Source: Nannochloris sp. 'desiccata' (taxonomy: Eukaryota > Chlorophyta > Trebouxiophyceae > Chlorellales > Chlorellaceae). Taken from it: a stretch of DNA of 64,000 nt. Positions 1-40,756 of this stretch are shown here, piece after piece. The notes beneath the pieces are model-generated. The model was not told where the DNA came from and did no database searches. It saw only the letters and a program-made list of their open reading frames with translations. The position numbers and the translations under genes are program-made. The number at the start of each line of letters is the position of its first letter. The first letter of the stretch is position 1. Where the stretch lies: NCBI GenBank assembly GCA_019044685.2, contig JAGTXX020000017.1, forward strand, positions 310,001-374,000, given 5' to 3'.

Positions 1-338
1 TAGATGGTATTGGAGCAATGGCTGATTATATCGGAAGACCAAATAGCAGGGAACGTAGCGACACAGAGAAGCTTTTACAGACAAGTAGATGAAGAGCGTC
101 GGCTTGCTTATGTCGGTATCATCACGGGTTTTTAGGCAACCCGTCTCTAGCGAATTATATCTATGAGTATACTGCTTATTTGAGAAAACGATTTGATACT
201 ATGAGGACTCATACGTGCTTTATAAAGATTGGGTCACTAGACACCATTTAGCTATGATTTTGTTACATCTGGTAGGCATTGTGCTACACCTCTAGAAAAT
301 TAGGAGCATCACGCCCCAGTTAAAATTTTTATTTTTAT

Positions 339-1153
339 TTAAGCCACAAGCTGAACTACACCGCCAGCCTCGTTGATCTTCTTCTCTGCGAGCTTGGATA
401 CAAACTTGGCACGCACGACCACGGGCTGAGCAGGGAGCTGTCCCTTGCCAAGCACCTTGAAATATCCGTGCTGAGTAACGTCAATGACGGGAGCAGCAGC
501 AGTGTCCTTAGCAGCCTCAAGGCGACCCTCCTCACCGACGAGAGTCCAGAGCTTATCAAGATTAATAACGGGGCAGAAATACTTGTTCATACTCTTATGG
601 AAGTAACGCATACCAACCTTTCCGAAGTAACCAGGATGATATTTGTCCATGAGAATTCTGTAAGGAAAACCAATAAAGAACGGGTTAGTTATCGTGCATA
701 TAGGTCATACCGTGTATTGATTGTGTAACATTGTGCCAGGAATGACACACCCCAAAGCAAGATGCAATAAATAGCCAATAAACTATACTTGCCTGTGATG
801 ATGCTGGCCACCAGCGTTACCGCGGCCACCAGGATGCTTCCTGTGCTTTCCGATACGGCCATGACCGGCACTAACGTGTCCCCTCTTCTTTCTATGTTTC
901 CTCAAGCCTGCAAATACAAAATGAGGGCGGCCATCAGTTCATTAATTCAATTCATAGACAAAGTCTCCTCCAGAGCTGGCAATAATGCTGTCCGCTGCTA
1001 TAGAATAGTTAACGCTGGCTAAGTATCCAAATACCCATTGCAGGACTAACAGCAGACAGCTTTCGCCGTCTAAACATGCAGTCCTCTCTGGGCATTGCTG
1101 CTGGTTTAAAAAGGCCGCTTTTAAAATTCCCCCTGCAACTTACGGGTCGTCAT
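339..1153 (-). CDS. RPL27A: 60S ribosomal protein L27a (uL15), left-arm copy
   Basis: Cytosolic large-subunit ribosomal protein uL15. Three exons read on the minus strand: 1144-1153 (10 nt, giving MTT plus one base), 793-907 and 339-657. Together they give 147 residues, the usual length for eukaryotic L27a. Exon 2 encodes the basic Gly/His-rich start ([18 protein letters not shown]) and exon 3 encodes the [14 protein letters not shown] block and the C-terminus. The second intron has a GC donor (AG|GCAAGT) with a normal AG acceptor; no GT donor keeps the frame. Codon choice is C-rich at third positions, as expected for high expression. It is divergent from mS34 (about 300 bp between starts). 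AATAAA-like A/T-rich sequence follows the stop. An identical copy lies at 39285-40099. Confidence 0.95.
1030..1096 (-). ncRNA. Candidate structured RNA (H/ACA-like hairpin) in RPL27A intron 1
   Basis: On the gene's sense strand this 67-nt stretch folds into an extended hairpin. It has an 8-bp basal stem (AATGCCCA with TGGGTATT, one G-U), a 6-bp stem (AGGACT with AGTCCT), a two-sided internal loop of 9 and 7 nt, and an apical stem GACGGC/GCTGTC closed by a GAAA tetraloop. The internal loop resembles a pseudouridylation pocket, and ribosomal-protein introns (including vertebrate RPL27A) commonly host H/ACA snoRNAs. However, no convincing H box or terminal ACA with normal spacing was found, so the class is uncertain. 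The same hairpin is in the right arm at 39342-39408. Confidence 0.4.
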
Positions 1154-1454
1154 CTTGAATAAATGCTCCCGAAGCCGACGATAAGGCTAATAAGAGGACG
1201 ATTTTGATGCAGGAAGTGGCCTAAATGGGCAGCATTGAGCTTGAAGCCGACTGCCAGGGTCAAAGAAACAATTTCACGACGCTATTTTGGGTCTTAACTC
1301 TTGCATTAAAGTTTCTCCTGATTGTGTTCATCAATTCGGAGTGGGCAATAAAGTAATGTGTAGTTAATTTCTAGACTAGACTCCTCGAACGATTTTAAAG
1401 TTGTTTATACCCGATCAAATTTTGTGCCTCAGTTTGAGGAAATTTACCTGAAAA

Positions 1455-2078
1455 ATGCGGCAAACACTCCCAAAGCTAGCTAAAAATGGTGAGAATAGAT
1501 GTAGATTTTCGGCAACAATGCGGCATAAGAAACATCCATTGAGAAATATCGTTATAAAGAATCTGAACGAAGCTTCAATTTTCACCGCCACTGACGCTAT
1601 TGCTCTTTTTCTTGTTTGCAGCTTATGAAGTGTTGAGTAGCTTACCAAAACATGGTATGGGAACAAAAATTACACGTAGCACATGGCAGGATAGTTCATT
1701 TTGGACGGTCACACAGATTAAAACTGAGATGGTACGTTGATTTTTCCTCTCTCCCCGAGAACCTCACTCTAGCGTTACTTATTCTAATTGTACTTGCTTG
1801 CATTCATTTAGCAGGATGGAAAAAGAGGGAAAGCATATGGTCTACTGACATGGCGAGGGGAGCAGCAAGGTGAGCAACCTTCCCGCATTAGAGGTGCATC
1901 TAAAAAACTATGGAGACCACTCGGGGCAGCAGCAGGAGCAGTAGGACCGGAGCCAACACCGGTATGGCCATCATTAGCAGCGTCTGCAATGGAAGAAGCA
2001 GAAGTAAAACGACAAGAGCCTGAAGCAACAGAGAGTGTAGAAGCAGATAGTCAAAGTGAAGATGCCCCACCATCGTAG
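1455..2078 (+). CDS. MRPS34: Mitochondrial small ribosomal subunit protein mS34, left-arm copy
   Basis: Component of the mitochondrial ribosome small subunit. Three exons: 1455-1488, 1622-1731 and 1812-2078, with GT donors (GTGAGA, GTACGT) and AG acceptors, all in frame, giving about 136 residues. The family core is clear: LPKHGMGTKITRSTW, then SFWTVTQIK, then KRGKAYGLLTWRG, which matches the conserved G-x-G-x-x-(V/I)-T-R...FW-x-V-(T)...G-K-x-x-G-x-x-T-W-R-G pattern of mS34. The C-terminal third is acidic and Ala/Pro-rich and looks lineage-specific. The acceptor of exon 3 could also be 3 nt downstream (1815), which would drop one residue. Its promoter is shared head to head with RPL27A. A duplicate is at 38360-38983. 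Confidence 0.85.
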
Positions 2079-2287
2079 CTGGCGTCTATGGTGTCCTAGT
2101 AAAAACTTTCTTTATTCTCTGTTCTTTCTTTCTTTACCAACTACATATCTCTATGTATTATTTTCTTTATTTCGCACGTAATAATAACTGTTTAACTTCA
2201 TAGAGTTTAATACCTTGTTTGATTCACTACACATTATGTAAAAGTAAATTTATTCTCTTATCATGATAAAGAATAATAAAACATAGA

Positions 2288-4493
2288 CTACTTTCTTCTC
2301 CTCCTCTTCAAGGCAACATACCCGGTCTGCAATTCGTCCCCCGGCACCGGCGCCTCCTCCTCCTCCGGCTTCGCCTCCTCCTCCGGCTCTATACTTCCTT
2401 TGCTCCTCTCCCTTGCCACTTCTTTACTTCCCCCACCACCATTAGTAGGAGCTTTCGCAGACTTCTTCGTCGTTTTCGATTCATAAAATGCAATCAGCGT
2501 ATACATACAATGGATCAATTTCGGTCCCAGGAGCCATTTTGAAGGGAAATTTTCTTTAAAGCCATCGTTCCACACAACAAACAGCTCAAGATGCTGCCCA
2601 GTATGTTTAGCGCCTGTTAATTTGGCATCAGCCCACATCTCTGGTTGTAAACGGATCCTTAAAGTTTTCCTTCTTTCTTTTTCTTCATCAGAGAGGTAGG
2701 TCTCTTTTTCAAAGTCGGCCAGCTCCTCCTCCTCCTCTTCTTTTTTTTCTTCTGTATCCTCTGTCTTTTCTTCTTCCAACTCTTCTCCTCCTTCATCTTC
2801 AGTATCAGGAAGAGGCATCGGGGCATGAATGATCTCTACATCATCTTCTTCTTCTTCCTCCTCCTCAGCGATCGGCTGGGTGGGGGCCGCTGCTGCCGCA
2901 GTAATGCGGATTGGGGTAGCTCCTTCAGGCTCTCTCGATTTAGGATCTCGAGAAGGCCCTGGCATCACTTTCCTCCTTCGTTTTCTTTCTTCTACTTCTT
3001 CGTTTGTTTCTCTACGATTTAAGGTCTCCAGTGCTGCAATTGCTGCCGCTTCGCCCGCTGCCTGCACCGCATTTCTGGCTGCTGCAGAGACTCCTTCGAC
3101 AGTTCTCCTAGGAGGAGGCTTCTTAGGATGCCTCGCTTGATTGGCTTGCTGTTTTTGAGCATACTCTACATTATTTCTAAGAAGAGGGTGAACTCTAACG
3201 CCATTTACAAGAGGAAGAGGGGCACGGGTACCATGAGCAACTTTGTTGACAGCTGCAACGACAGAAGGGGCCAATGGCCTCCTCGCATTACCATACGCTC
3301 GAGGTCTCTTACTTATATAACCAGCACCAGACGCAGCACCAGTAGCACCGAGTGGTAATAAATGAGAGACTCTAGGCACGGAACCCGGTGGCTCTTTCAT
3401 TAATTCATTATTTTGCAGCTGCTCTGCGGCTAGCCATTGCAAGTGCCCACTCGGGGAAATCGCAGCAGCAGCAGCCGGCAAGAAAACTCCACCATCTCCA
3501 CTTGGTAAAGGCAACAAGCGTACGTGTTCTTCAGGTTGTGAGTACAGCTGTACACGCTGTGCTAATTGATCATCTCTCGTTACTCGTCCTTGGTGACTTC
3601 CCCTCAAGGGCACTTTGGGCTCCGGAAGCAGCAGCGGTGATGGTAACCTATCTGGCACCTGCTGACGTTGCAGCTGATGCTGCTGTTGATCTTGTATATG
3701 CATATTTTCAGGATTATAGAATTCCCCTTGAATAACTGAAGCTTGATGTTCACCACCACCATCACCATCGATATAGATACCGTCAGCAGCAGCGCCACCT
3801 GCTTGCACACTGCCTCCTACAGTCGTTGTATCTTCCTCTCCGCTGGGGATAGCACCACCTCCTTTCTTTAACTTCCAAGTATCAAGCATCGATTTCCACG
3901 TACTTGCAAAATTTGTTTTTAGTTGTCCTTTAGAAAACCACTCGCCCTGTTCTTGACTTTGCCCAAGAAACATCACTAAATAGTTATACTCGGAGCGTTT
4001 TCCACGCCGTTTCTGCTCATCTAAGACGATAATAGGTGCAACCCGTTGTTGTTCGTGCTCCATTTGCTGTGTATTAGGCAGTTGAGTGGCAGGCACATCA
4101 CCCGACAAGATGGCAACAATAGCAGCGTCGATGTCAATTGAGTTTATGATTCTGCCTTTGATATTGTCTTCGGAAGCTTGTAGAGCAATCTTGACAGCCT
4201 GACGAGCGCGAAAAGCAGGAAAATCGGAAGCTATGGCCATGTCTTCTGCAATATTTGCCCATCCTTGCCACGAGCGGTAGGGGAATGCGTTCTTGTCTTG
4301 TTGTTCCTCGGGTAAGTCAACGGTGGCCCGGCGAACGTCGTAGCAATCCTGACTCAGATGGTAGTAAAGGTTGATTTAAGAGGGCGAAAGGATAAGGTGG
4401 TAGGGGATTATAGGAAACACCATTTCAGTTGAAGGGTACAAATCTCACCATGAGGCCTTCCCATATGTAAATGGGCTCTTCAGGGCCGTTCAT
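2288..4493 (-). CDS. Chromo shadow domain protein, left-arm copy
   Basis: Two exons on the minus strand, 4449-4493 (15 codons starting MNGPEEPIYIWEGLM) and 2288-4348, separated by a 100-bp intron, giving about 701 residues. I recognise a chromo-shadow-like domain near the C-terminus (about residues 590-655): LTGAKHTGQHLELFVVW, then FPSKWLLGPKL, then LIAFYES, closely paralleling the HP1 pattern of (I/L)-x-GA...L-x-F-x-x-x-W...P...FYE. No N-terminal chromodomain is visible. Before it lie a low-complexity acidic tract (about 530-570), basic patches and Q-, A- and G-rich linkers. It is likely nuclear and chromatin-associated, with dimerisation through the shadow domain (inference). The N-terminal block (RSWQGWANIAEDM) was not recognised. 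A hAT element sits about 170 bp upstream of the start. Identical copy at 35945-38150. Confidence 0.75.
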
Positions 4494-4651
4494 TCCGACC
4501 CCTTTATTTTTTTATTACCGAGATACAGTTGCTGGGGAATTTTCAAAGACTGCGAGTGTGCAACAATTTCCGTTGAAGTTATCAATTCTGTCAAGATTAC
4601 ACACATGAGCACGCACACCCGCTTTCAGCAGAGCCGATACTTGTATTAACT

Positions 4652-5169
4652 ACTGAGATCAGGGTTGCACTTAAGGATTTGGCCTGGCCCCAAATCCCGG
4701 CTATTTTCGGCGTTTCCAGCGATTTTTTGGCCATTTTCCACGGCTATTTTTGAGCCGATCTGCAGCTCCCGGCCATTTTTCTATAATTTCAATTGTGCGT
4801 TATATTACATTGAGAAGGCTCTTCATCGTCTTTGGTACCAAGGTCAAGCATCTCCACATCGGAGGCGGAATCAGGTTGATCAACCAAGTCGATCACCTCA
4901 TCAGAGATGGGTTGTTCATGATCATGATCGGGTTGCTGAACACTCTGAAGCTCGGCTGGGGTGCTCATAGTGAATAAATGGGTCCAGAAATGAATTCTGT
5001 ATGCGTATGTAAGCAAAATTTGTTGTATTTACAAATAGAATTTCAAATTTTATGTTCTGAAGTTCGGCTATTTTTGGCTGTTGTGGCCTCGGTCCCGGCC
5101 AAAATTTTCGGCTATTTTTTTGGGGCCGAAATGGCCGAATAGCCGGCTAAGTGCAACCCTGACTGAGAT
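4652..5169. mobile_element. Non-autonomous hAT transposon with 8-bp target duplication (left arm)
   Basis: The 502-bp element (4660-5161) is bounded by 14-bp perfect terminal inverted repeats CAGGGTTGCACTTA and flanked on both sides by the 8-bp direct repeat ACTGAGAT (4652-4659 and 5162-5169). An 8-bp duplication and a CAG-starting TIR are hallmarks of the hAT superfamily. Both ends carry several subterminal repeats of GGCTATTTT/GGCCATTTT, as expected for transposase-binding sites. The interior has a short acidic reading frame on the minus strand (4789-4967) but no zinc finger or hAT dimerisation domain, so it cannot move by itself. It lies between the GH92 3' end and the chromo-shadow gene. 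Confidence 0.93.
4789..4967 (-). pseudogene. Short acidic ORF inside the hAT element, possible transposase N-terminal remnant
   Basis: A reading frame of about 58 residues starting MSTPAELQSVQQPD, rich in Asp/Glu and containing VIDLVDQP and DVEMLDLG. It sits 5' to the middle of the deletion-type hAT element, where an autonomous relative would begin its transposase, and its acidic start resembles the region that often precedes a BED finger in hAT transposases. No BED Cys/His pattern or catalytic region remains. Interpretation as a transposase 5' remnant is inference; chance coding is possible. Confidence 0.4.
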
Positions 5170-5449
5170 AATAAGGCTTCGCGATTTAACTAGCTGAAAT
5201 CATTTTAGAACAAGAAATTTGGCCTCCTGCTCTGCCTGCTGAGTGGCACTGTGGCACATCTGGCCTCCTCTCCTCCAGTCTGCTGGTATCACTCTGCTCC
5301 GGTGTTTAACACGCGTTCCTGGAATAAACGAAATATATAAACAGTAATATATATAACTACCATAAAAAGAGTACCTAAATATAAACAGTACTAGCATCCC
5401 CACACTGCCGCCAAGCGGCCAGCAAACTTTCATAAAAATAAACAAAATT

Positions 5450-8134
5450 TCAATCGATTTTCGAGCTCATTTCCAGCTCCAACACCCCTCCATTCATTAT
5501 TTCATCATGCGTTATATACAATCTTCTTAAAAGTTCTCCATTTAAGCTAACGTTCTTCACAAATACATCTCCTCTCGTTCCCGCCCCCTGAGCCTTCACT
5601 TCAAATTTCCTTCCCTGTCCTACATCTATTACAGCGTGATCAAATATCGGACTCCCAAGCTGATATTTGGCTTCAGCGGGGTTGACGGGATAGAATCCTA
5701 GCGCGCTAAATATATACCAAGCACTCATCTGGCCACAATCTTCGTTTCCCACATAACCCTCCGGCTCTGCTCGATAAAATTGTTTTACTATTTCGCGTGC
5801 TCTAGCTTGTGTTTTATGTGGAGAACCTAGATAATTGTATAAATATGCGACGTGATGGCTTGGTTCGTTGCCATGGGCGTATTGGCCAATCATTCCCGAG
5901 ATATCCTCGCTTGTCCACAAACCCACAACGGCCGGATTTTCTTGAAAAAGTGCATCGAGCTTGGCTTCAAAGTTAGCTGATCCATTAAATAATTTAATTA
6001 ATCCTGGTATATCATGTGGAACAAACCACAGATGCTGCCAGGCAGTTCCTTCAGTGTAATCCCCTCCTTCGTGCTCAGACTGCCGGGGATTAAACCGGGT
6101 TTTCCAAGTATTATTTTTAAATTTCGCTCTCATAAACTGTGTTTCAGGGTCAAATACTCGTTTATACCCTTGGGAACGTTTATAAAAATACGCTGCATCT
6201 TTGTGACGTCCCAATATTTCAGCTATTTGGGCAATACACCAGTCATCGTACGACAATTCCAATGTGACGGTCACTGATTCATCTTTCTTTCCTGCTGGTA
6301 TAAATCCAAATCTATGCATTAAAGCACCACCACGTTCAACATCCATCGCAGTCCCTTTCATAGCTTTATATGCACGCTTAATATCTTGTTTACTTAATAG
6401 ATTTTTCTTTGCCGCTTCTGTGAGCATCACCGCCGCATGATAGCCCGGCATTGTTCTTGTTTCGACTCCAGCTAATGGCCAGAACGGCAGTAATCCGCCT
6501 TGGTGATCCGCATGGGCTAAGAAAGTACGCATCATATCTTTAACTCGGTCTGGGTTAAGAATGGTAAGGAGAGGGTGGGCGGCTCGGAAAGTGTCCCAAA
6601 TAGAAAACGTTGAATAATAGTCAGGCGAGAAAGAAGTATTAGCATCATAACTGTTATCATTTTCACTCTCAGAGGCACTAGTAACAAGGTTTCCACTCCT
6701 GATATTACTACCAGAAAGCACTCTATGTATCTGCGAATCAGGTCCCCTGTAAGCGCCACTTATATCTGAAAGTATTGTCGGTGCGAGCTTTGTATGATAT
6801 AAACTAGTATAAAACACAGATTTAGCCTCTTCAGTACCCCCTTGAACCACAATTTTTCTTAATTCAGATTCCCATGCTGCAGCAGCTGCTTGTCTGACGG
6901 AATCAAAATCCCAATTAGGGTTTTCAAGACGGAGATTGTCCTTTGCGCCTTCAACGCTCACAGAGGATATGCCAATTTTTAATAATACAAGTAAAGGCTC
7001 TTCCTCATTTTCATCAGCAGAATCACCAGTGTTATTAGGATCTGTAGTAATATTATTATCACTGTTAATAGAGTTCTTTAAATTATCAAAGGTGAAGTAG
7101 GCGATGGTATACTCGCCCTCGGCAACGCCCTTCATCATCCCATGATTGTCGGCAACTACGGTTTCTACTTCGGCGCCTTGAATTAAAGTGACTGCGCTCA
7201 AGGGAACTGAAAACTCCATAGCAAAATAAACGTGATGGTTTTCTGCCCATCCAGTACTCTTACGATACCCTGTAATTGAGGTCGTCCATGTGCCATTAAT
7301 CAAGTCATCTGACGACGAGATGCTGGTCAGTTCAATCAGTGAGGCCTCCAACGCATCAGTATTAAGAGCAAAACATAGATTTAATACTATCCCGGGCAGA
7401 TATTCTGAAGAAGATGCAGAACTTTGTGGTTCAAAAGCTGCGGAATCTATAGGAGCAAATGGGTTTTTTGTAGCTGAAGGAGGATAAAAAGTGTAGCGAT
7501 GCATCCCAGTTCTTTCAGTTGCCGTCAACTCAACTTGCACTCCATGGTCCATAAACACTGAATAATAGCCGGGTTCAGCAACTTCATTGCTATGATTAAA
7601 ACTTTGCCGTAGATCCAAATCCCAAAATTCTTTCAATGACGTGCTATTAATAGGGGAGAGAGTTGGCTGGACGGAGATGTCAAGCAAGTCGCCAATGCCG
7701 GTACCACTCAAGTGGGTATGAGAGAAGCCAATGATAGTGGAAGCGTTGTAGTGATAGCCTGAAGAGTAAGCCCAACCTTCATTACCATTGTCAGGGCTAA
7801 GCTGAACCATGCCAAAAGGAACAGTAGCGCCAGGATAGGTATGGCCTTGGCCTCCGGTGCCGATGAAGGTATTTACATATTTGTTAAAGTGAGGCGGCGG
7901 CGGTGGTGGTGGTGGTAAAGCTGGTTTTTGTAGTTCTTCTTCATCTTTTCGTTGTTGCTCTTGCGCTTCAGGTACGCTATTGTGTACTCTATTCCAAACC
8001 TGTGCAGAATACGAGGTATTTAAAAGCGCAAAGAGGATGGTGGCGAACAGAGGCAGAAGAAAAAATTTCAAAAGTCGTGCGGAGAGTCGCCGCTGTCTTT
8101 TTTGTTTTCTTGTGTGCCACATTTGCCAAGGCAT
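5450..8134 (-). CDS. GH92 alpha-mannosidase, membrane-anchored, complete copy
   Basis: Single-exon gene of 894 codons, starting at the ATG at 8132-8134 (MPWQMWHTRKQ). An upstream in-frame TTG is not a credible start. A basic cytoplasmic head (KQKRQRR) precedes one hydrophobic segment at about residues 24-38, typical of a type II Golgi/ER anchor, followed by a stalk with an eight-proline run. The GH92 domain fills about residue 85 to the end: YVNTFIGTGGQGHTYPGATVPFG, GFSHTHLSGTG, HADHQGGLLPFWPL, GNEPSHHVAYLYNY and GNEDCGQMSAWYIFSALGFYP are all family signatures. GH92 enzymes are Ca2+-dependent exo-alpha-mannosidases on N-glycan or related mannose chains; they are best known in bacteria and fungi. 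A 5'-truncated duplicate is at 32751-34988. Confidence 0.93.
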   Translation of the reverse strand: MPWQMWHTRKQKRQRRLSARLLKFFLLPLFATILFALLNTSYSAQVWNRVHNSVPEAQEQQRKDEEELQKPALPPPPPPPPHFNKYVNTFIGTGGQGHTYPGATVPFGMVQLSPDNGNEGWAYSSGYHYNASTIIGFSHTHLSGTGIGDLLDISVQPTLSPINSTSLKEFWDLDLRQSFNHSNEVAEPGYYSVFMDHGVQVELTATERTGMHRYTFYPPSATKNPFAPIDSAAFEPQSSASSSEYLPGIVLNLCFALNTDALEASLIELTSISSSDDLINGTWTTSITGYRKSTGWAENHHVYFAMEFSVPLSAVTLIQGAEVETVVADNHGMMKGVAEGEYTIAYFTFDNLKNSINSDNNITTDPNNTGDSADENEEEPLLVLLKIGISSVSVEGAKDNLRLENPNWDFDSVRQAAAAAWESELRKIVVQGGTEEAKSVFYTSLYHTKLAPTILSDISGAYRGPDSQIHRVLSGSNIRSGNLVTSASESENDNSYDANTSFSPDYYSTFSIWDTFRAAHPLLTILNPDRVKDMMRTFLAHADHQGGLLPFWPLAGVETRTMPGYHAAVMLTEAAKKNLLSKQDIKRAYKAMKGTAMDVERGGALMHRFGFIPAGKKDESVTVTLELSYDDWCIAQIAEILGRHKDAAYFYKRSQGYKRVFDPETQFMRAKFKNNTWKTRFNPRQSEHEGGDYTEGTAWQHLWFVPHDIPGLIKLFNGSANFEAKLDALFQENPAVVGLWTSEDISGMIGQYAHGNEPSHHVAYLYNYLGSPHKTQARAREIVKQFYRAEPEGYVGNEDCGQMSAWYIFSALGFYPVNPAEAKYQLGSPIFDHAVIDVGQGRKFEVKAQGAGTRGDVFVKNVSLNGELLRRLYITHDEIMNGGVLELEMSSKID

Positions 8135-9805
8135 TCCTTCTCTCGCAATCAAGTACGCATCTCTATGTTCGTGTATCCTCCTATGGGGAGCAGGATGGGT
8201 CTATTTGGTAAAATTTGAGTTGCAATGGCAGAATTAAGTGGATTTGTCCAGCCACAATTGAGAGAAAGGTTTTAAAAGGTGACGAATATAATTAGCTGCG
8301 CCGCCTCATTTGTGTCTATCTATTTTAATATATATATATGGATCGGAAGGTTGCGTGCGCCAGAAATCAAGCTCAAGATAGCCATCCTATGCAAATTGGT
8401 GGAGCTTAAATGTAGCAATTTCCAGACTGCAAGCTAAATTCTCCCATACTCTCCTGTAAAAATCGGACCATTATACCTGCCACATTTCATTAGATCGAAA
8501 AGAACTGTTCATTCTGCCATATTTATTGAAAATTTCCCAAGATCTGTTCTCCAAAGCTATATCTATTTTCTAATCTGTACTTCAAGTTGCGCACTAAATA
8601 CTAATACTTACAGGGTCATTCTTTCGAAAATTCTTTACATTAGTACAAGGCTCTGCGGTTGTAGAAGAGTAAGAAAGTTCTGCTAAATACGTCAATCACA
8701 TATGAAAGGAGAAGAGAGAGAAAAAAAACGGTCACCGTCAATTTTAGAAAAGTCAACTGTCAAAAAGGACATAAATCGTACTAGTAAGAGACATGAGGCT
8801 CAAGGAAAGACGCTCTCAACACCACAACGACAAAACAAAAGCCACAATGGAATATTAAAATAATCATAACCAGCAAAATCAATATTTAGAAAACTACGAT
8901 GAAAAAGAAAACACAAGAGCTCTGTTTGTCATTCTTTACTTGTGGTGTTCCGTAGAGGGGCGAATAGAGAGAACAATCATCCATGGCCACGCACATATCA
9001 TATCGAATCGAACAAGGAGACAAAATTAAGAAAGAATTGAGAGACATTGCGTTGGGGGAGGGGGGGGGGGGGGGGGGGGGGGTACTTGTGCCACCGACAC
9101 AAACGCCTTTGAAATTTTTGATAAAGAGAAAAGTAGGAAAAGGAGACGTTCATCTATCATTAATTCATTCATTCATTAATTGGAACATTGGTTGACGAGT
9201 GTGCTTGGTAAAAAAGAACGCACACAGGACAAGAAAAGAGCGAGAAAAAGAAAGAAAAGAAGCCGAGCAAGCAGAAAAAACAGAAAGACGTTGGGACAAA
9301 TTTCTAGGTTTCATTCTCATTTATTAATATAATAAATCAACTCATACCAGGGAAAGAAATGGGGGAAAGAAAAGGGAGAAAATAAAGATGAAAAGGAATC
9401 ATTCGTTAAACGGGTTTGATTGCGTTAGGGGGAAAACGGGGGAGGGGGGCCCACAGCGTCCTGTTGGCGGCACTATTTTGATTGGATTGATTTAGTTTTC
9501 ATAAAAGACGATATAAAAGAATTCAAAACTACTCTTTTTTAAATTATCTGCTTGGAAAAAGCACCTCTATGGACAAATAAGAGGGTAGGAGACGGATAGA
9601 GAAGAAAAAGGACAAAGAAGAACCTGGCTCTTTGGTAATTAATTCATTTTCAGAGGGTACGTTCGCCCTTTTGAAATTAATTTGACTAGGAGGAAAGGGA
9701 AAAAGAAAACACAATATGAGGGGGAGGGTAGTTTAAATAAAAGGGCTACCCCGAAAAACACACACCTAATCAAATGGGCAAAATAAGTAGAGATAGAGAG
9801 GATAT
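8135..9805. other. 1.67-kb intergenic region with purine-rich low complexity
   Basis: No convincing gene. The left part is the GH92 promoter and 5' leader, with an alternating TA tract near 8325. From about 8700 to 9770 the plus strand is strongly purine-rich (A/G runs) and holds a 23-base G homopolymer at 9060-9082. The right part probably includes the 3' UTR of the PLATZ gene. Short open frames here are low complexity and not supported. Confidence 0.7.
9060..9082 (+). repeat. 23-nt poly-G tract
   Basis: An uninterrupted run of 23 G, preceded by GGGGGA, in intergenic DNA. A tract this long could form intramolecular G-quadruplexes and is a length-unstable microsatellite. It is also a place where sequencing length is unreliable. 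Confidence 0.95.
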
Positions 9806-14635: not shown

Positions 14636-15281
14636 ATGGCGAAAGGTGGTGACAAGCGCAGAATCCAAGAGAACGGCGCCCACGTGCAAAAACTCAAATT
14701 CCTAATTGCCTTTGCCAATGTAGGTGTCGTCCCATCTCTCTCATTTCCTTCAAAAGCAGCACATACTACTCTGTCCGCTGCCCCTCAAATTCTTTAGCTA
14801 CACTGCCGACTTCTTAATTACCATAGTATCCCTCTTTTCGCACTCCCAGGTTGTCTATATTGGTTCTAGATTCTTCATTTACAAAAACTCCGCCATTAGT
14901 TGGCACGGGGGCGCTCTTCTCCTCACCAGTCTTGCATACACATTCTGCTTCTCTGGCATCATAGCTGCACTTGCCCCTCACTACTCTGCCAATGGGGATA
15001 TCATCTTCTCTGGTGCAGACCTTAAAACAGGTGGTGTGCTGTCGTATTATCATGATATAGTATATCTTTCTTTGTTTTCTCAAATTTTAGGCGCTTGGAC
15101 CAACTACGCTTGGCTGGCGATGGCTGCTATACCAGCCTACGCACTGCACGCGTTGATTACCAAGGTGTTGTTACCGTCGTGGAAGACTCCAGAGGAAATG
15201 CCGGAGAGTGAGCTGGATAGAAAGAGAAGGGAAAAGAGGGAGAGGCAATCAGCCCGAGCTGAGAAATTTGCCCGGAGGTAG
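14636..15281 (+). CDS. TMEM208: TMEM208 / SND2-like ER membrane protein
   Basis: Two exons, 14636-14719 and 14850-15281 (phase 0), giving 171 residues. The family is ER-resident and acts in SRP-independent targeting of tail-anchored and other membrane proteins. The start MAKGGDKRRIQEN, hydrophobic helices around FLIAFANVVYIGSRF, ALLLTSLAYTFCF and the hairpin YAWLAMAAIPAYALHALI, and the final charged ERxxRRKREKRE-type tail match the family's length and layout. An unspliced frame exists through part of the intron but includes no conserved sequence. AATAAA follows the stop within 15 nt. Confidence 0.9.
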
Positions 15282-15512
15282 AGAATAATAAAGTTCTCTA
15301 CTTTTATTTATGCTTGCTAGAAAACCTTCAACTTGTGTAACTTTACAACGTACAACCGAAGAGAGTTTTCAAAAAATAATCAAGAAAACAGCAAAGATCA
15401 AAGAAAAGAGTAAACCTTCTTCATATGGATAAAAGTAAAGGCCGTTCAAAAGGAAAGAGTTTCTGAAATGTTTTGCCAACGCCGTCCAATAAAAAGTTTA
15501 ATTTGTTGCTAT

Positions 15513-17048: not shown

Positions 17049-17422
17049 CGCTTTGGTTTGTTGTCAAATGATGCGAGCTATTAGCTTACGAAACAAGTGA
17101 TAATAGGCCTTAAAACAGTCCTAATGTGCAAATTAAAATTACACGCCCCCTCCTTGCCCTTGGACAGCAAGATTATGTCATTATTGCTCGAGCAAGGGCG
17201 GCTATCTCAACTGAATGAATTTCAAAAGTCAAGTTGGGTGATCATCTTCTTTCTCTCTCTTCTCACCGAGCTAGGAGAAAAGCTTTCCATCAAATTAACA
17301 TATTAAACCTTTCGTAGTACTTGTAAGCTACACATGGACGGTCTATTTACACAAAAACAAGTTGTATCTATAAGAACTATCAGAAAAATCAAAAAAGAAA
17401 GAAAGAAATCCGTCGTCGTCGC
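17049..17422. other. Intergenic, no gene seen
   Basis: 374 bp between the OSBP start and the bZIP stop. It includes the OSBP promoter and bZIP 3' UTR. The small plus-strand open frame is not supported by composition or neighbours. Confidence 0.6.
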
Positions 17423-19318: not shown

Positions 19319-19552
19319 CTTTCTCAAAACAAACTGCTACAGAGCGTTATGAAAGCAGGTATTCCGGGCGTGTTCAAACCACACAGCAAATAATAAATGG
19401 TGACATGTAGTGGAAGCATAGTGTGTATAGTGAATATTCTTATGGGCTTCCAGAAATTGGGATACTTCCGAATACAGTATACTTTTTTACAAAGGTACTT
19501 ATCTAAGACATAGCTGCTACCAAATTGCACTAAATTACCCTAAAACGATATT

Positions 19553-29236: not shown

Positions 29237-29334
29237 ATGAAATTATTTATTTCGGTGAAGGATAGCATAATAGCATGATCAAGTGTGCTCTTCTAAATGA
29301 AAAAATGTTGAAAACTAAACTAAAAAAATTGATT

Positions 29335-32300: not shown

Positions 32301-32761
32301 AAACCAGAGACCACTTTACTTCCACTATAAAGCGCTTGCGCCTTTTCAGAATCTTTTCCGACGTCATCTGCTTCCCCAGTTAAATGGGATTCATCCACTT
32401 TAATATCAGTTCCAGCTACCAAAACACCATCGACACACAAAATATCTCCAGTTTCGACTAATAAAAGGTCTCCTACAAGAACATCTAACGTAGAAAGTTG
32501 TACCTCCCTGCCGCCGCGTAGGGCTCGTACGCTGTCCTCTCGTTGGATGTCTTGTAGAGCTTTAAATTGTTGTTCTTTTTGGTAATTATTCCCTGCAGTG
32601 ACTAGGGTCACAACGGCTACAGCGGCGAGAATGCTGACTCCTTCGATCCAGTTTGGGGAAGAGCCATCGTTGCCAGCAAGCCAGTATTCTAGGGCAAGAG
32701 ATGCAGAACCGGCACCTAGCAAGATCTTCACTGTAAAGTCATCAATTGAATTGCTTGACAT
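29335..32761 (-). CDS. P-type IIB Ca2+-ATPase, N-terminus lost at repeat junction
   Basis: Two exons remain, 31862-32761 and 29335-31758, joined as FFITGVTIL-VVAVPEGLPLAV. Visible motifs: the phosphorylation site ICTDKTGTLTQN, MLTGDN, the hinge TGDGTNDAPALRAADVG and the C-terminal multi-helix domain. ATPase-derived sequence begins only just upstream of TM1 (SIDDFTVKILLGAG) at 32750, so the cytosolic N-terminus, which holds the calmodulin-binding autoinhibitor in plant ACA pumps, is missing. Antisense GH92 sequence happens to supply an in-frame ATG at 32759-32761, which would give about 1,107 residues. No C-terminal calmodulin domain is apparent. Ser/Asn-rich insertions sit in the N domain. 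Whether the locus is expressed, or the junction is real, is open. Confidence 0.88.
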
Positions 32762-34988
32762 CTCCGTCCAGCCAACTCTCTCCCCTATTAATAGCACGTC
32801 ATTGAAAGAATTTTGGGATTTGGATCTACGGCAAAGTTTTAATCATAGCAATGAAGTTGCTGAACCCGGCTATTATTCAGTGTTTATGGACCATGGAGTG
32901 CAAGTTGAGTTGACGGCAACTGAAAGAACTGGGATGCATCGCTACACTTTTTATCCTCCTTCAGCTACAAAAAACCCATTTGCTCCTATAGATTCCGCAG
33001 CTTTTGAACCACAAAGTTCTGCATCTTCTTCAGAATATCTGCCCGGGATAGTATTAAATCTATGTTTTGCTCTTAATACTGATGCGTTGGAGGCCTCACT
33101 GATTGAACTGACCAGCATCTCGTCGTCAGATGACTTGATTAATGGCACATGGACGACCTCAATTACAGGGTATCGTAAGAGTACTGGATGGGCAGAAAAC
33201 CATCACGTTTATTTTGCTATGGAGTTTTCAGTTCCCTTGAGCGCAGTCACTTTAATTCAAGGCGCCGAAGTAGAAACCGTAGTTGCCGACAATCATGGGA
33301 TGATGAAGGGCGTTGCCGAGGGCGAGTATACCATCGCCTACTTCACCTTTGATAATTTAAAGAACTCTATTAACAGTGATAATAATATTACTACAGATCC
33401 TAATAACACTGGTGATTCTGCTGATGAAAATGAGGAAGAGCCTTTACTTGTATTATTAAAAATTGGCATATCCTCTGTGAGCGTTGAAGGCGCAAAGGAC
33501 AATCTCCGTCTTGAAAACCCTAATTGGGATTTTGATTCCGTCAGACAAGCAGCTGCTGCAGCATGGGAATCTGAATTAAGAAAAATTGTGGTTCAAGGGG
33601 GTACTGAAGAGGCTAAATCTGTGTTTTATACTAGTTTATATCATACAAAGCTCGCACCGACAATACTTTCAGATATAAGTGGCGCTTACAGGGGACCTGA
33701 TTCGCAGATACATAGAGTGCTTTCTGGTAGTAATATCAGGAGTGGAAACCTTGTTACTAGTGCCTCTGAGAGTGAAAATGATAACAGTTATGATGCTAAT
33801 ACTTCTTTCTCGCCTGACTATTATTCAACGTTTTCTATTTGGGACACTTTCCGAGCCGCCCACCCTCTCCTTACCATTCTTAACCCAGACCGAGTTAAAG
33901 ATATGATGCGTACTTTCTTAGCCCATGCGGATCACCAAGGCGGATTACTGCCGTTCTGGCCATTAGCTGGAGTCGAAACAAGAACAATGCCGGGCTATCA
34001 TGCGGCGGTGATGCTCACAGAAGCGGCAAAGAAAAATCTATTAAGTAAACAAGATATTAAGCGTGCATATAAAGCTATGAAAGGGACTGCGATGGATGTT
34101 GAACGTGGTGGTGCTTTAATGCATAGATTTGGATTTATACCAGCAGGAAAGAAAGATGAATCAGTGACCGTCACATTGGAATTGTCGTACGATGACTGGT
34201 GTATTGCCCAAATAGCTGAAATATTGGGACGTCACAAAGATGCAGCGTATTTTTATAAACGTTCCCAAGGGTATAAACGAGTATTTGACCCTGAAACACA
34301 GTTTATGAGAGCGAAATTTAAAAATAATACTTGGAAAACCCGGTTTAATCCCCGGCAGTCTGAGCACGAAGGAGGGGATTACACTGAAGGAACTGCCTGG
34401 CAGCATCTGTGGTTTGTTCCACATGATATACCAGGATTAATTAAATTATTTAATGGATCAGCTAACTTTGAAGCCAAGCTCGATGCACTTTTTCAAGAAA
34501 ATCCGGCCGTTGTGGGTTTGTGGACAAGCGAGGATATCTCGGGAATGATTGGCCAATACGCCCATGGCAACGAACCAAGCCATCACGTCGCATATTTATA
34601 CAATTATCTAGGTTCTCCACATAAAACACAAGCTAGAGCACGCGAAATAGTAAAACAATTTTATCGAGCAGAGCCGGAGGGTTATGTGGGAAACGAAGAT
34701 TGTGGCCAGATGAGTGCTTGGTATATATTTAGCGCGCTAGGATTCTATCCCGTCAACCCCGCTGAAGCCAAATATCAGCTTGGGAGTCCGATATTTGATC
34801 ACGCTGTAATAGATGTAGGACAGGGAAGGAAATTTGAAGTGAAGGCTCAGGGGGCGGGAACGAGAGGAGATGTATTTGTGAAGAACGTTAGCTTAAATGG
34901 AGAACTTTTAAGAAGATTGTATATAACGCATGATGAAATAATGAATGGAGGGGTGTTGGAGCTGGAAATGAGCTCGAAAATCGATTGA
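32751..34988 (+). pseudogene. 5'-truncated GH92 alpha-mannosidase copy
   Basis: Identical to codons 150-894 of the complete gene at 5450-8134, starting LLDISVQPTLSPINS. The membrane anchor, stalk and the N-terminal part of the catalytic fold with FIGTGGQGHTYPG are absent. The frame stays open to the normal stop, and an apparent 796-codon frame reaches back to 32598, but its first 51 codons are antisense Ca2+-ATPase, not mannosidase. Without the promoter, anchor and N-terminal domain it is presumably non-functional, although nothing else in it is damaged. Confidence 0.9.
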
Positions 34989-35268
34989 AATTTTGTTTAT
35001 TTTTATGAAAGTTTGCTGGCCGCTTGGCGGCAGTGTGGGGATGCTAGTACTGTTTATATTTAGGTACTCTTTTTATGGTAGTTATATATATTACTGTTTA
35101 TATATTTCGTTTATTCCAGGAACGCGTGTTAAACACCGGAGCAGAGTGATACCAGCAGACTGGAGGAGAGGAGGCCAGATGTGCCACAGTGCCACTCAGC
35201 AGGCAGAGCAGGAGGCCAAATTTCTTGTTCTAAAATGATTTCAGCTAGTTAAATCGCGAAGCCTTATT

Positions 35269-35786
35269 ATCTCAGTCAGGGTTGCACTTAGCCGGCTATT
35301 CGGCCATTTCGGCCCCAAAAAAATAGCCGAAAATTTTGGCCGGGACCGAGGCCACAACAGCCAAAAATAGCCGAACTTCAGAACATAAAATTTGAAATTC
35401 TATTTGTAAATACAACAAATTTTGCTTACATACGCATACAGAATTCATTTCTGGACCCATTTATTCACTATGAGCACCCCAGCCGAGCTTCAGAGTGTTC
35501 AGCAACCCGATCATGATCATGAACAACCCATCTCTGATGAGGTGATCGACTTGGTTGATCAACCTGATTCCGCCTCCGATGTGGAGATGCTTGACCTTGG
35601 TACCAAAGACGATGAAGAGCCTTCTCAATGTAATATAACGCACAATTGAAATTATAGAAAAATGGCCGGGAGCTGCAGATCGGCTCAAAAATAGCCGTGG
35701 AAAATGGCCAAAAAATCGCTGGAAACGCCGAAAATAGCCGGGATTTGGGGCCAGGCCAAATCCTTAAGTGCAACCCTGATCTCAGT
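35269..35786. mobile_element. Non-autonomous hAT transposon (right-arm copy)
   Basis: Same element as at 4652-5169, inverted: element body 35277-35778 with the same TIRs and flanking ATCTCAGT duplications (35269-35276 and 35779-35786). Because the target duplication is shared, insertion happened before the arms were duplicated. Confidence 0.93.
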
Positions 35787-35944
35787 AGTTAATACAAGTA
35801 TCGGCTCTGCTGAAAGCGGGTGTGCGTGCTCATGTGTGTAATCTTGACAGAATTGATAACTTCAACGGAAATTGTTGCACACTCGCAGTCTTTGAAAATT
35901 CCCCAGCAACTGTATCTCGGTAATAAAAAAATAAAGGGGTCGGA

Positions 35945-38150
35945 ATGAACGGCCCTGAAGAGCCCATTTACATATGGGAAGGCCTCATGGTGAGATTTGT
36001 ACCCTTCAACTGAAATGGTGTTTCCTATAATCCCCTACCACCTTATCCTTTCGCCCTCTTAAATCAACCTTTACTACCATCTGAGTCAGGATTGCTACGA
36101 CGTTCGCCGGGCCACCGTTGACTTACCCGAGGAACAACAAGACAAGAACGCATTCCCCTACCGCTCGTGGCAAGGATGGGCAAATATTGCAGAAGACATG
36201 GCCATAGCTTCCGATTTTCCTGCTTTTCGCGCTCGTCAGGCTGTCAAGATTGCTCTACAAGCTTCCGAAGACAATATCAAAGGCAGAATCATAAACTCAA
36301 TTGACATCGACGCTGCTATTGTTGCCATCTTGTCGGGTGATGTGCCTGCCACTCAACTGCCTAATACACAGCAAATGGAGCACGAACAACAACGGGTTGC
36401 ACCTATTATCGTCTTAGATGAGCAGAAACGGCGTGGAAAACGCTCCGAGTATAACTATTTAGTGATGTTTCTTGGGCAAAGTCAAGAACAGGGCGAGTGG
36501 TTTTCTAAAGGACAACTAAAAACAAATTTTGCAAGTACGTGGAAATCGATGCTTGATACTTGGAAGTTAAAGAAAGGAGGTGGTGCTATCCCCAGCGGAG
36601 AGGAAGATACAACGACTGTAGGAGGCAGTGTGCAAGCAGGTGGCGCTGCTGCTGACGGTATCTATATCGATGGTGATGGTGGTGGTGAACATCAAGCTTC
36701 AGTTATTCAAGGGGAATTCTATAATCCTGAAAATATGCATATACAAGATCAACAGCAGCATCAGCTGCAACGTCAGCAGGTGCCAGATAGGTTACCATCA
36801 CCGCTGCTGCTTCCGGAGCCCAAAGTGCCCTTGAGGGGAAGTCACCAAGGACGAGTAACGAGAGATGATCAATTAGCACAGCGTGTACAGCTGTACTCAC
36901 AACCTGAAGAACACGTACGCTTGTTGCCTTTACCAAGTGGAGATGGTGGAGTTTTCTTGCCGGCTGCTGCTGCTGCGATTTCCCCGAGTGGGCACTTGCA
37001 ATGGCTAGCCGCAGAGCAGCTGCAAAATAATGAATTAATGAAAGAGCCACCGGGTTCCGTGCCTAGAGTCTCTCATTTATTACCACTCGGTGCTACTGGT
37101 GCTGCGTCTGGTGCTGGTTATATAAGTAAGAGACCTCGAGCGTATGGTAATGCGAGGAGGCCATTGGCCCCTTCTGTCGTTGCAGCTGTCAACAAAGTTG
37201 CTCATGGTACCCGTGCCCCTCTTCCTCTTGTAAATGGCGTTAGAGTTCACCCTCTTCTTAGAAATAATGTAGAGTATGCTCAAAAACAGCAAGCCAATCA
37301 AGCGAGGCATCCTAAGAAGCCTCCTCCTAGGAGAACTGTCGAAGGAGTCTCTGCAGCAGCCAGAAATGCGGTGCAGGCAGCGGGCGAAGCGGCAGCAATT
37401 GCAGCACTGGAGACCTTAAATCGTAGAGAAACAAACGAAGAAGTAGAAGAAAGAAAACGAAGGAGGAAAGTGATGCCAGGGCCTTCTCGAGATCCTAAAT
37501 CGAGAGAGCCTGAAGGAGCTACCCCAATCCGCATTACTGCGGCAGCAGCGGCCCCCACCCAGCCGATCGCTGAGGAGGAGGAAGAAGAAGAAGATGATGT
37601 AGAGATCATTCATGCCCCGATGCCTCTTCCTGATACTGAAGATGAAGGAGGAGAAGAGTTGGAAGAAGAAAAGACAGAGGATACAGAAGAAAAAAAAGAA
37701 GAGGAGGAGGAGGAGCTGGCCGACTTTGAAAAAGAGACCTACCTCTCTGATGAAGAAAAAGAAAGAAGGAAAACTTTAAGGATCCGTTTACAACCAGAGA
37801 TGTGGGCTGATGCCAAATTAACAGGCGCTAAACATACTGGGCAGCATCTTGAGCTGTTTGTTGTGTGGAACGATGGCTTTAAAGAAAATTTCCCTTCAAA
37901 ATGGCTCCTGGGACCGAAATTGATCCATTGTATGTATACGCTGATTGCATTTTATGAATCGAAAACGACGAAGAAGTCTGCGAAAGCTCCTACTAATGGT
38001 GGTGGGGGAAGTAAAGAAGTGGCAAGGGAGAGGAGCAAAGGAAGTATAGAGCCGGAGGAGGAGGCGAAGCCGGAGGAGGAGGAGGCGCCGGTGCCGGGGG
38101 ACGAATTGCAGACCGGGTATGTTGCCTTGAAGAGGAGGAGAAGAAAGTAG
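35945..38150 (+). CDS. Chromo shadow domain protein, right-arm copy
   Basis: Exons 35945-35989 and 36090-38150, 701 residues, identical to the left-arm copy at 2288-4493. The first exon (MNGPEEPIYIWEGLM) ends at ATG|GTGAGA and joins at GAGTCAG|GATTGC; without it the frame would start late at MAIASDFP. The promoter is bounded by the hAT element ending at 35778. Confidence 0.75.
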
Positions 38151-38359
38151 TCTATGTTTTATTATTCTTTATCATGATAAGAGAATAAATTTACTTTTAC
38201 ATAATGTGTAGTGAATCAAACAAGGTATTAAACTCTATGAAGTTAAACAGTTATTATTACGTGCGAAATAAAGAAAATAATACATAGAGATATGTAGTTG
38301 GTAAAGAAAGAAAGAACAGAGAATAAAGAAAGTTTTTACTAGGACACCATAGACGCCAG

Positions 38360-38983
38360 CTACGATGGTGGGGCATCTTCACTTTGACTATCTGCTTCTA
38401 CACTCTCTGTTGCTTCAGGCTCTTGTCGTTTTACTTCTGCTTCTTCCATTGCAGACGCTGCTAATGATGGCCATACCGGTGTTGGCTCCGGTCCTACTGC
38501 TCCTGCTGCTGCCCCGAGTGGTCTCCATAGTTTTTTAGATGCACCTCTAATGCGGGAAGGTTGCTCACCTTGCTGCTCCCCTCGCCATGTCAGTAGACCA
38601 TATGCTTTCCCTCTTTTTCCATCCTGCTAAATGAATGCAAGCAAGTACAATTAGAATAAGTAACGCTAGAGTGAGGTTCTCGGGGAGAGAGGAAAAATCA
38701 ACGTACCATCTCAGTTTTAATCTGTGTGACCGTCCAAAATGAACTATCCTGCCATGTGCTACGTGTAATTTTTGTTCCCATACCATGTTTTGGTAAGCTA
38801 CTCAACACTTCATAAGCTGCAAACAAGAAAAAGAGCAATAGCGTCAGTGGCGGTGAAAATTGAAGCTTCGTTCAGATTCTTTATAACGATATTTCTCAAT
38901 GGATGTTTCTTATGCCGCATTGTTGCCGAAAATCTACATCTATTCTCACCATTTTTAGCTAGCTTTGGGAGTGTTTGCCGCAT
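38360..38983 (-). CDS. MRPS34: Mitochondrial ribosomal protein mS34, right-arm copy
   Basis: Exons 38950-38983, 38707-38816 and 38360-38626, identical to the gene at 1455-2078. Its promoter and head-to-head partner RPL27A are also preserved, so this copy should be expressible if the duplication is real. Confidence 0.85.
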
Positions 38984-39284
38984 TTTTCAGGTAAATTTCC
39001 TCAAACTGAGGCACAAAATTTGATCGGGTATAAACAACTTTAAAATCGTTCGAGGAGTCTAGTCTAGAAATTAACTACACATTACTTTATTGCCCACTCC
39101 GAATTGATGAACACAATCAGGAGAAACTTTAATGCAAGAGTTAAGACCCAAAATAGCGTCGTGAAATTGTTTCTTTGACCCTGGCAGTCGGCTTCAAGCT
39201 CAATGCTGCCCATTTAGGCCACTTCCTGCATCAAAATCGTCCTCTTATTAGCCTTATCGTCGGCTTCGGGAGCATTTATTCAAG

Positions 39285-40099
39285 ATGACGACCCGTAAGT
39301 TGCAGGGGGAATTTTAAAAGCGGCCTTTTTAAACCAGCAGCAATGCCCAGAGAGGACTGCATGTTTAGACGGCGAAAGCTGTCTGCTGTTAGTCCTGCAA
39401 TGGGTATTTGGATACTTAGCCAGCGTTAACTATTCTATAGCAGCGGACAGCATTATTGCCAGCTCTGGAGGAGACTTTGTCTATGAATTGAATTAATGAA
39501 CTGATGGCCGCCCTCATTTTGTATTTGCAGGCTTGAGGAAACATAGAAAGAAGAGGGGACACGTTAGTGCCGGTCATGGCCGTATCGGAAAGCACAGGAA
39601 GCATCCTGGTGGCCGCGGTAACGCTGGTGGCCAGCATCATCACAGGCAAGTATAGTTTATTGGCTATTTATTGCATCTTGCTTTGGGGTGTGTCATTCCT
39701 GGCACAATGTTACACAATCAATACACGGTATGACCTATATGCACGATAACTAACCCGTTCTTTATTGGTTTTCCTTACAGAATTCTCATGGACAAATATC
39801 ATCCTGGTTACTTCGGAAAGGTTGGTATGCGTTACTTCCATAAGAGTATGAACAAGTATTTCTGCCCCGTTATTAATCTTGATAAGCTCTGGACTCTCGT
39901 CGGTGAGGAGGGTCGCCTTGAGGCTGCTAAGGACACTGCTGCTGCTCCCGTCATTGACGTTACTCAGCACGGATATTTCAAGGTGCTTGGCAAGGGACAG
40001 CTCCCTGCTCAGCCCGTGGTCGTGCGTGCCAAGTTTGTATCCAAGCTCGCAGAGAAGAAGATCAACGAGGCTGGCGGTGTAGTTCAGCTTGTGGCTTAA
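39285..40099 (+). CDS. RPL27A: 60S ribosomal protein L27a, right-arm copy
   Basis: Exons 39285-39294, 39531-39645 and 39781-40099, 147 residues, identical to the gene at 339-1153, including the 10-nt first exon and the GC-AG second intron (donor at 39646-39647). Confidence 0.95.
39342..39408 (+). ncRNA. Candidate H/ACA-like hairpin in RPL27A intron 1 (right-arm copy)
   Basis: Same 67-nt structure as at 1030-1096: nested stems AATGCCCA/TGGGTATT, AGGACT/AGTCCT and GACGGC/GCTGTC around a GAAA loop. Boxes defining the class were not found with confidence. Confidence 0.4.
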
Positions 40100-40756
40100 A
40101 TAAAAATAAAAATTTTAACTGGGGCGTGATGCTCCTAATTTTCTAGAGGTGTAGCACAATGCCTACCAGATGTAACAAAATCATAGCTAAATGGTGTCTA
40201 GTGACCCAATCTTTATAAAGCACGTATGAGTCCTCATAGTATCAAATCGTTTTCTCAAATAAGCAGTATACTCATAGATATAATTCGCTAGAGACGGGTT
40301 GCCTAAAAACCCGTGATGATACCGACATAAGCAAGCCGACGCTCTTCATCTACTTGTCTGTAAAAGCTTCTCTGTGTCGCTACGTTCCCTGCTATTTGGT
40401 CTTCCGATATAATCAGCCATTGCTCCAATACCATCTACAAACCACCACCACCGCCAGCATGTTCTACTTGAGTGCAGTCGTTTCTTATGAGTGGTGTTAG
40501 TTGATTCAGATTCTGCTAGAATTCTAGTAAGATAGAATGATGTTGCATGAACCAGGTCATTTCTTTACTCATTTTTATATTCACATAAAACAGAATGCAT
40601 CCAAAAGCTTAATCGGTAAATATTAACGGCAATGCAGGGTTTTATGTTAAAAAAAAGCCTAAAACTAAAGGTGCAATTGCCAGGTCAGCCTTTTCCAAAA
40701 AAGTTTTCGTGACCCTTCATTGAACCACAACTTGAAACTTTTTACCGCCAAATGAC
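40100..40756. other. Convergent intergenic region crossing the visible edge of the repeat
   Basis: 657 bp between the RPL27A and selenium-binding protein stops. The first 338 bp match bases 1-338. The remaining 319 bp show no gene and contain no Ca2+-ATPase N-terminal coding sequence. Confidence 0.6.

Follow-up and report, generated by a model that had tools for sequence, protein, structure and literature searches.

Contig C17 of the green alga Nannochloris sp. 'desiccata' (653,437 bp) is organised as a forward, an inverted and a second forward stretch of the same chromosomal sequence, joined at two folds. We consider it probable, judging from the sequence, that this arrangement represents a real and recent inverted triplication of the DUP-TRP/INV-DUP type, located in a single homologue of the chromosome to which contig C9 corresponds in a diploid alga. 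The three stretches occupy C17:1-342743 (forward), 342751-642775 (inverted) and 642771-653437 (forward). The inverted stretch corresponds to C17:15263-317687 read in reverse complement, while the third, entered after the second fold (J2), repeats C17 13681 to 24347 in forward orientation for 10,667 bp, at which point the contig ends. When the chromosome is divided into consecutive segments a-b-c-d, the lengths are ~302 kb (302,425 positions) for c, 25,056 bp for d and 1,582 bp for b; on C17 itself, d is seen once, b twice, and c twice together with a further 9,085 bp of a third copy (15263-24347). One segment thus lies in forward-inverted-forward order and is accompanied by two novel junctions, as is characteristic of DUP-TRP/INV-DUP. 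No telomere repeat was present in the outer 250 bp of either end of C17. The contig ends rule out a palindrome of the whole contig or an isochromosome, since the arms do not run to telomeres: a second fold precedes the contig end, and the C17 region is internal in C9.

The stretch of DNA analysed here (the window; 64,000 bp, with a G+C content of 45.2%, in an assembly of 21.55 Mb) covers the first fold, J1. An earlier note had described an apparently identical inverted repeat in it, and this was borne out: positions 1-7687 of the window (forward strand; C17:310001-317687), which form the inner end of the left arm, are matched without a single mismatch by the reverse complement of 32751-40437, and on the inner side the match ends immediately. 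A perfect match of 7.7 kb is far beyond chance. A scan of the window for repeats (20-base seeds, minimum 200 nt) listed this as the sole inverted pair, extended by 3 bases inward through one tolerated mismatch. The arm length of at least 7,687 bp given in the note is exact for the part shown but describes only a fragment, since the start of the window cuts the arm. With flanking sequence added, the perfect match grew to 31,250 bp and reached the last base of the window, so that the right arm (inverted c, reverse strand) takes up window 32751-64000; sampled pairs extend the arms to C17:15263 on the left and C17:642775 on the right, or ~300 kb. Similarly, the proposed spacer of 25,063 bp was found to consist of 25,056 bp of ordinary chromosome, segment d (forward strand; window 7688-32743), and a 7-bp filler at the fold (window 32744-32750). 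The single inverted pair of the earlier note therefore exists, but is an incomplete description of a contig that is forward-inverted-forward and that has a single-copy version on C9. A search with bacterial settings found no tRNA genes in the window.

C9 (1,932,830 bp) carries the region once, uninterrupted through both fold sites. Summed over eight selected blocks, without gaps and with overlapping repeat blocks left out, C9 and C17 are 0.35% different (144 mismatches in 41,027 aligned bases); this sum omits stretches printed as 100%, whose scores imply few mismatches, and the genome-wide C9-C17 difference is probably lower. Segment d is colinear with C9 in its aligned parts, which run to C17:330360 and then from C17:338571 to 342743, the latter block being 99.88% identical to C9:1424001-1428174. 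The left arm contains a 502-bp MITE-like repeat element (window 4660-5161) that is absent from C9, where the matches to window 1-4659 and 5162-7687 overlap by 8 bp (C9:1400546-1400553), likely a target-site duplication; pieces related to this element are found on C3, C4, C6, C11, C12 and C14. Its mirror lies in the right arm at window 35277-35778, within the perfect repeat, implying that the insertion is older than the fold. Near J2, all three copies share a 758-bp insertion that C9 lacks. Taken together with the C17 base carried by the right arm at six of six C9/C17 differences beside a deletion in that arm (see below), these shared insertions indicate that the copies derive from one haplotype, in the parts seen. 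Outside the C17 match, no second copy was found for any of three stretches examined (C9 sequence just past each side of the match, where no second contig turned up, and one stretch on C4), repeat matches in these being at most 126 bp, which indicates that the assembly represents the genome mainly in haploid form.

The arms showed 0 substitutions across 67,035 of their 302,425 positions compared, 8,000 of the 67,035 resting on equal scores, whereas ~235 would be expected had the arms diverged to the extent that C9 and C17 have in the counted blocks. This fits the very recent duplication suggested in the earlier note. Sampling included 10 mirrored pairs of 800 bp, of which eight were exact at the first offset; for the pair at 30001 the offset had to be moved by 2,400 to obtain the match, and that at 60001 was partnerless, lying inside a deleted stretch. 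This is the one difference between the arms among the parts compared: 2,400 bp of a DDB1 gene (left-arm C17:59504-61903, outside the window) are missing from the right arm, with blunt edges, but are present in both the left arm and C9. Three alleles are therefore found at this site, namely that of C9, that of the left arm (3 differences from C9) and the deleted right-arm form, which is more than a plain diploid can supply. A blunt deletion of exactly 2,400 bp is a round number that could reflect a consensus error, in which case the three-allele argument falls.

We then considered the sequences at the folds. At J1, the right end of d is joined to the right end of inverted c through the 7-bp filler, which matches neither C9 flank when the flank letters are compared; the breakpoints lie 25,056 bp apart and share 0 bases, and the junction sequence occurs once in the assembly. 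The filler is an ordinary end-joining scar; a templated origin from within 200 bp was rejected, as just two 6-mer matches, both unconvincing, were found. At J2, the breakpoints are 1,582 bp apart and share a 5-bp microhomology (inverted match), for which the chance in a random join is ~0.005. The longest exact inverted match was 10 nt at J1 and 11 nt at J2, which is not above shuffle level (1-kb windows, 100 shuffles each; means 9.74 and 9.77, maxima 13 and 14). Neither fold therefore looks repeat-driven, and both repeat-mediated recombination (NAHR) and a repeat-driven misjoin were rejected. The 758-bp insertion was likewise discounted as the cause of J2: it is found in three copies, at distances from J2 of 397 bp on one side and 1,979 bp on the other.

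Two genes are cut at J1. In the forward copy, an intact open reading frame for a glycoside hydrolase of family 92 (GH92; window 5450-8152, reverse strand; PF07971 5.9e-166, PF17678 9e-65) runs across the boundary between c and d. In its junction copy (window 32598-34988, forward strand; PF07971 4.1e-166), the N-terminus is replaced at J1 and the N-domain truncated, GH92N being matched only from profile position 63, while the catalytic domain is retained. The N-terminal part of a P-type (E1-E2) ATPase (window 31817-32797, reverse strand; PF00122 1.4e-22) is also cut at J1; the copy on C9 has an open frame of 506 codons that reaches further upstream than the junction frame. A cation-ATPase C-terminal part in d (window 29335-31857, reverse strand; PF00689 2e-35) is probably the remainder of this gene. 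A search with the GH92 protein gave no indication of how other assemblies of the species read the junction.

Under an inverted triplication, one homologue would have the order a-b-c-d / c-inverted / b-c..., the likely outcome of two events of end joining, or of template switching at microhomology, in which sister copies of a single haplotype took part. These events may have produced the order directly, or a tighter palindrome may have been eroded to it, the route proposed for inverted triplications in yeast and human. That the event was recent is suggested by arms in which no substitution was seen, and the blunt 2,400-bp deletion in one arm would have come after it. We infer that a single molecule carries both J1 and J2, and that the third copy continues beyond 10.7 kb through c, d and the remaining chromosome, giving copy numbers of 2 for b, 3 for c and 2 for d on the affected homologue. 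Against a triplication, C17 ends 10.7 kb past J2, short of the far side of the structure, and shows no telomere repeat at either end. Moreover, the arms are longer than any usual read length, so the linkage from J1 through the arm to J2 is the assembler's. Recombination between the arms could in principle invert the 25-kb spacer.

Comparison with known systems places the structure close to several of them. Models of fold-back inverted duplication involve one fold, often with terminal loss, whereas C17 has two and resumes in forward orientation. Large inverted copies made by a fold are what it shares with the fold-back inverted duplications of PMC3907307 and PMC10622511. In human DUP-TRP/INV-DUP, as described in the portion of PMC10766186 available to us, a large segment in forward-inverted-forward order is likewise flanked by unequal shorter duplications, DUP segments vary in size between a few kb and thousands of kb, and many of the junctions listed share 0-4 bp. 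Set against the human cases in that portion, the present one concerns a diploid green alga, has a 7-bp filler at J1 and a later 2.4-kb deletion in one arm, and its third copy is visible for ~9 kb, the copy numbers being predicted ones. Yeast origin-dependent inverted-repeat amplification (ODIRA) at the SUL1 locus yields interstitial inverted triplications (excerpts of PMC10766186 and PMC4689423), and its eroded form has spacers of 1.1-34.9 kb made through microhomology (same part of PMC10766186). The spacers here, of 1.58 and 25.06 kb, fall within this yeast range, which fits ODIRA but does not single it out; the first has the 5-bp microhomology of J2, whereas J1 has none and carries the filler. 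Unlike primary ODIRA as excerpted, the folds here are without inverted repeats of 5-6 bp placed 40-80 bp apart, and unlike the yeast work described there no selection experiment is involved. In the related diploid trebouxiophyte Auxenochlorella, loss of heterozygosity is pervasive and aneuploidy occurs (available text of PMC12633428). There, too, extra copies of one haplotype are found, which change in culture, but they involve whole chromosomes rather than a segmental inverted rearrangement.

The earlier note had also raised an assembly error, and we regard it as unlikely, though still a rival, that the assembler, misled by two chimeric reads, folded a heterozygous haplotig of C9 onto itself. 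Several observations would suit such an artefact. C17 is an oddity in an assembly in which three of three other stretches tested lacked a second haplotype; the arms are substitution-free; and C17 lacks telomere repeats and has both ends in stretches matching C9 at a printed 100%, in keeping with the tendency of haplotigs to break where haplotypes match. The region's CDC5/CEF1 protein is, moreover, also listed, 100% identical over the query, on a contig of 1,925,892 bp, nearly as long as C9, which is probably another version of the C9 chromosome; another assembly of the species thus seems to hold this chromosome without the 629-kb gain, although strain or haplotype may differ. Yet an artefact requires that chimeras arose independently at both ends of a single 302-kb stretch, and it must account for fold offsets of 25 kb and 1.6 kb when fold-back reads have near-zero offset, and for folds at which no inverted repeat exceeds chance. 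One sequence walked twice would also give identical arms, whereas the right arm has a deletion matching neither the C9 nor the left-arm allele, barring a consensus error. A literature search for palindromic-contig artefacts gave none.

It is doubtful, but conceivable, that C17 derives from a ~629-kb extrachromosomal inverted dimer, or its integrated product, already changing by deletion in a diploid alga: a circle (or hairpin-capped line) in which c, d, inverted c and b are joined and which coexists with normal homologues. C17 would then correspond to a single linearisation of the circle, with 13.7 kb of normal left flank placed ahead of it. Such a molecule would explain why C17, once past J2, runs back into its own early part in unchanged orientation and ends 10,667 bp later, and why it lacks telomere repeats. 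The flank could be that of the normal homologue, the first 2.5 kb of C17 being printed as 100% identical to C9 (the score suggests ~1 mismatch). However, assemblers likewise halt when they meet a long repeat for a second time, a chromosomal triplication yields identical letters, and there is no sign of a free molecule or of variable copy number. A circle of this kind is the proposed intermediate in yeast (PMC10766186, in the part available). It is very improbable that J1 and J2 arose as two separate rearrangements on different molecules (breakage-fusion-bridge cycles or a mixed culture) and were merged by the assembler: ordinary reads cannot phase J1 with J2 across arms of this length and similarity, which leaves the co-linearity of the two folds unproven by sequence, but two independent large fold-backs would be needed in the same region and haplotype, whereas one triplication explains both.

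Whether real or an artefact, the contig should carry a warning, since gene counts and apparent 'duplicates' over ~300 kb depend on it. The affected region would contribute extra copies of ~130 genes (estimated, not counted, from a density of 9,123 genes per 21.6 Mb). GH92, the P-type ATPase and DDB1 would each gain one broken copy, while unbroken copies of all three are present elsewhere in the assembly. A narrow full-text search of open papers for 'inverted triplication' with 'alga' returned one paper, listed as dealing with chloroplast genomes, further literature searches gave nothing on this forward-inverted-forward structure, and we make no claim of a first report. If the dimer reading were true, a postulated intermediate of yeast amplification would have been caught in a sequenced culture. 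If instead the inverted triplication is real, as we favour, both junctions, the parental haplotype and the single-copy homologue can be read at base resolution, and a form of inverted amplification known from yeast selections, human disease and tumours would also occur in a vegetatively diploid alga.

As an earlier note had reported, positions 1-7687 and 32751-40437 are reverse complements without any mismatch, and they form the only inverted pair of at least 200 nt found in the window using 20-base seeds. The window corresponds to C17:310001-374000, C17 being one of the 18 contigs that make up an assembly of 21,550,525 bp. The stretch then described proved to be just the inner edge of the repeat, however: once the left flank was added, the perfect match spanned 31,250 bp and reached the window's right end. 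Ten mirrored pairs of 800 bp extended the comparison, and eight were exact at one common mirror offset, one became exact once the offset was shifted by 2,400 bp, and one had no partner because it lies inside a stretch deleted from the right arm. Further mirrored pairs were all exact (3/3 of 300 bp and 3/3 of 5 kb), and on its outer side the right arm ends at C17:642775, paired with C17:15263. In total, 0 substitutions were found in 67,035 positions compared, out of 302,425, giving a 95% upper bound on divergence of ~2.2e-5 per site per arm, a value compatible with an origin in culture but loose as a date.

Although free of substitutions in the positions compared, the arms differ in length: outside the window, a stretch of 2,400 bp (left-arm C17:59504-61903, blunt ends) is missing from the right arm. 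It falls within a gene with frames matching RSE1/DDB1/CPSF1 beta-propellers and a CPSF_A domain; the last piece matches DDB1 chains in the PDB (~1e-45). The left-arm version differs at three places from that on C9, the contig carrying the region once. For three alleles to exist here, there must be at least three DNA copies or a mixed culture, unless the right arm contains a consensus error; given the round length of 2,400 bp, the gap may be such an error.

C17 continues past the right arm. At C17:642771-642775 the sequence switches to C17:13681 and proceeds forward to 24347, where the contig ends, so that its segments are ordered + - +. At the first fold, J1, 7 extra bases (32744-32750) connect the right ends of a 25,056-bp spacer and of the inverted arm, and the J1 sequence occurs once in the assembly. 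The two sides of the second fold, J2, share 5 bases, and its loop measures 1,582 bp; a random join would share at least 5 bases with p=0.005 and none with p=0.56. No inverted repeat connecting the breakpoints rose above shuffle level at J1 or J2.

J1 brings two cut genes together head to head: a GH92 copy lacking the start of its N-domain (32598-34988, + strand) and a P-type cation ATPase lacking its upstream part (31817-32797, - strand). The unbroken GH92 frame is in the C17 forward copy, where it spans the boundary between arm and spacer (5450-8152, - strand), and the longer ATPase frame is on C9. This single-ORF GH92 has bacterial proteins as its named relatives among the matches listed and unnamed metagenomic proteins as its closest; it may have been acquired by horizontal transfer. 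Elsewhere in the amplified portion, the window contains ORFs with matches to a selenium-binding protein, a VIT-family transporter, CDC5/CEF1 and a cyclopropane-synthase-like protein. Two ~810-bp units, 89.5% alike, occupy 42863-44985, one over a VIT-family ORF; since C9 carries additional, rearranged units, their copy number differs between the two versions.

C9 (1,932,830 bp, with telomere repeats at its right end) has one copy of the region in the parts searched and is continuous through both fold sites. Eight aligned blocks contained 144 differences from C17 in 41,027 bases, while two further stretches, of 2.5 and 7.9 kb, were printed as 100% identical although their scores imply a few mismatches; divergence is therefore patchy. 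Three stretches were searched for a second copy: C9 just outside the C17 match on each side, and one on contig C4. As none had a second copy beyond repeat matches of up to 126 bp, the assembly is mainly a haploid representation, with C17 an extra. PMC12633428 mentions Nannochloris as a genus with a diploid assembly. The region's CDC5/CEF1 protein is also listed, 100% identical, on a 1,925,892-bp contig, which suggests that this chromosome is present at about C9's length in another assembly; that version may represent the second haplotype, a different strain, or the same haplotype without the rearrangement.

Shared insertions indicate that the C17 copies, in the parts seen, derive from one haplotype. 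A 502-bp MITE-like element is present in both arms (4660-5161 and 35277-35778) and absent from C9, where the flanking matches overlap by 8 bp, likely a target-site duplication. Pieces related to it (75-100% identity) occur on C3, C4, C6, C11, C12 and C14. Both arms and the third copy, which restarts after J2, carry a 758-bp insertion near J2 (C17:15660-16417) that is likewise missing from C9; the flanks of this insertion overlap in C9 by 7 bp, and stretches of 68-77 bp on C8 and C16 match its end. At 6/6 C9/C17 differences flanking the DDB1 deletion, the C17 base is present in each arm. The amplification is therefore younger than the haplotype split.

The simplest account, and in our view the probable one, places an inverted triplication on a single homologue, where it would arise via two joins between sister copies. 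According to PMC10766186, tight palindromic junctions are proposed to erode via end joining, break-induced replication or recombination, yeast spacers after microhomology-driven erosion measure 1.1-34.9 kb, and human DUP segments range from a few kb upward. The C17 spacers (1.58 and 25.06 kb) fall within that yeast range. ODIRA is a possible rather than a demonstrated origin, because the folds lack its primary signature (inverted repeats of 5-6 bp spaced 40-80 bp from each other) and J1 has no microhomology. The same sequence could also result from a breakage-and-fusion chain or from template switching during break-induced replication. We infer all sequence past the contig end and, because the arms far exceed ordinary reads, the linkage of J1 to J2. 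Misassembly is a less likely alternative. A free inverted dimer, whether a circle or a hairpin-capped line, is a still weaker candidate. The telomere heptamer lies in the first 250 bases of 11/18 contigs and is absent there from C5, C9, C10, C13, C15, C16 and C17 (7/18), which may be open ends; besides C17, all three far ends examined (C3, C6, C9) have telomere repeats. C18 (13,816 bp) starts with telomere repeats and is perhaps an unplaced chromosome end.

Read as an inverted triplication, C17 would be a well-resolved candidate example of a known rearrangement type in an unexpected organism.
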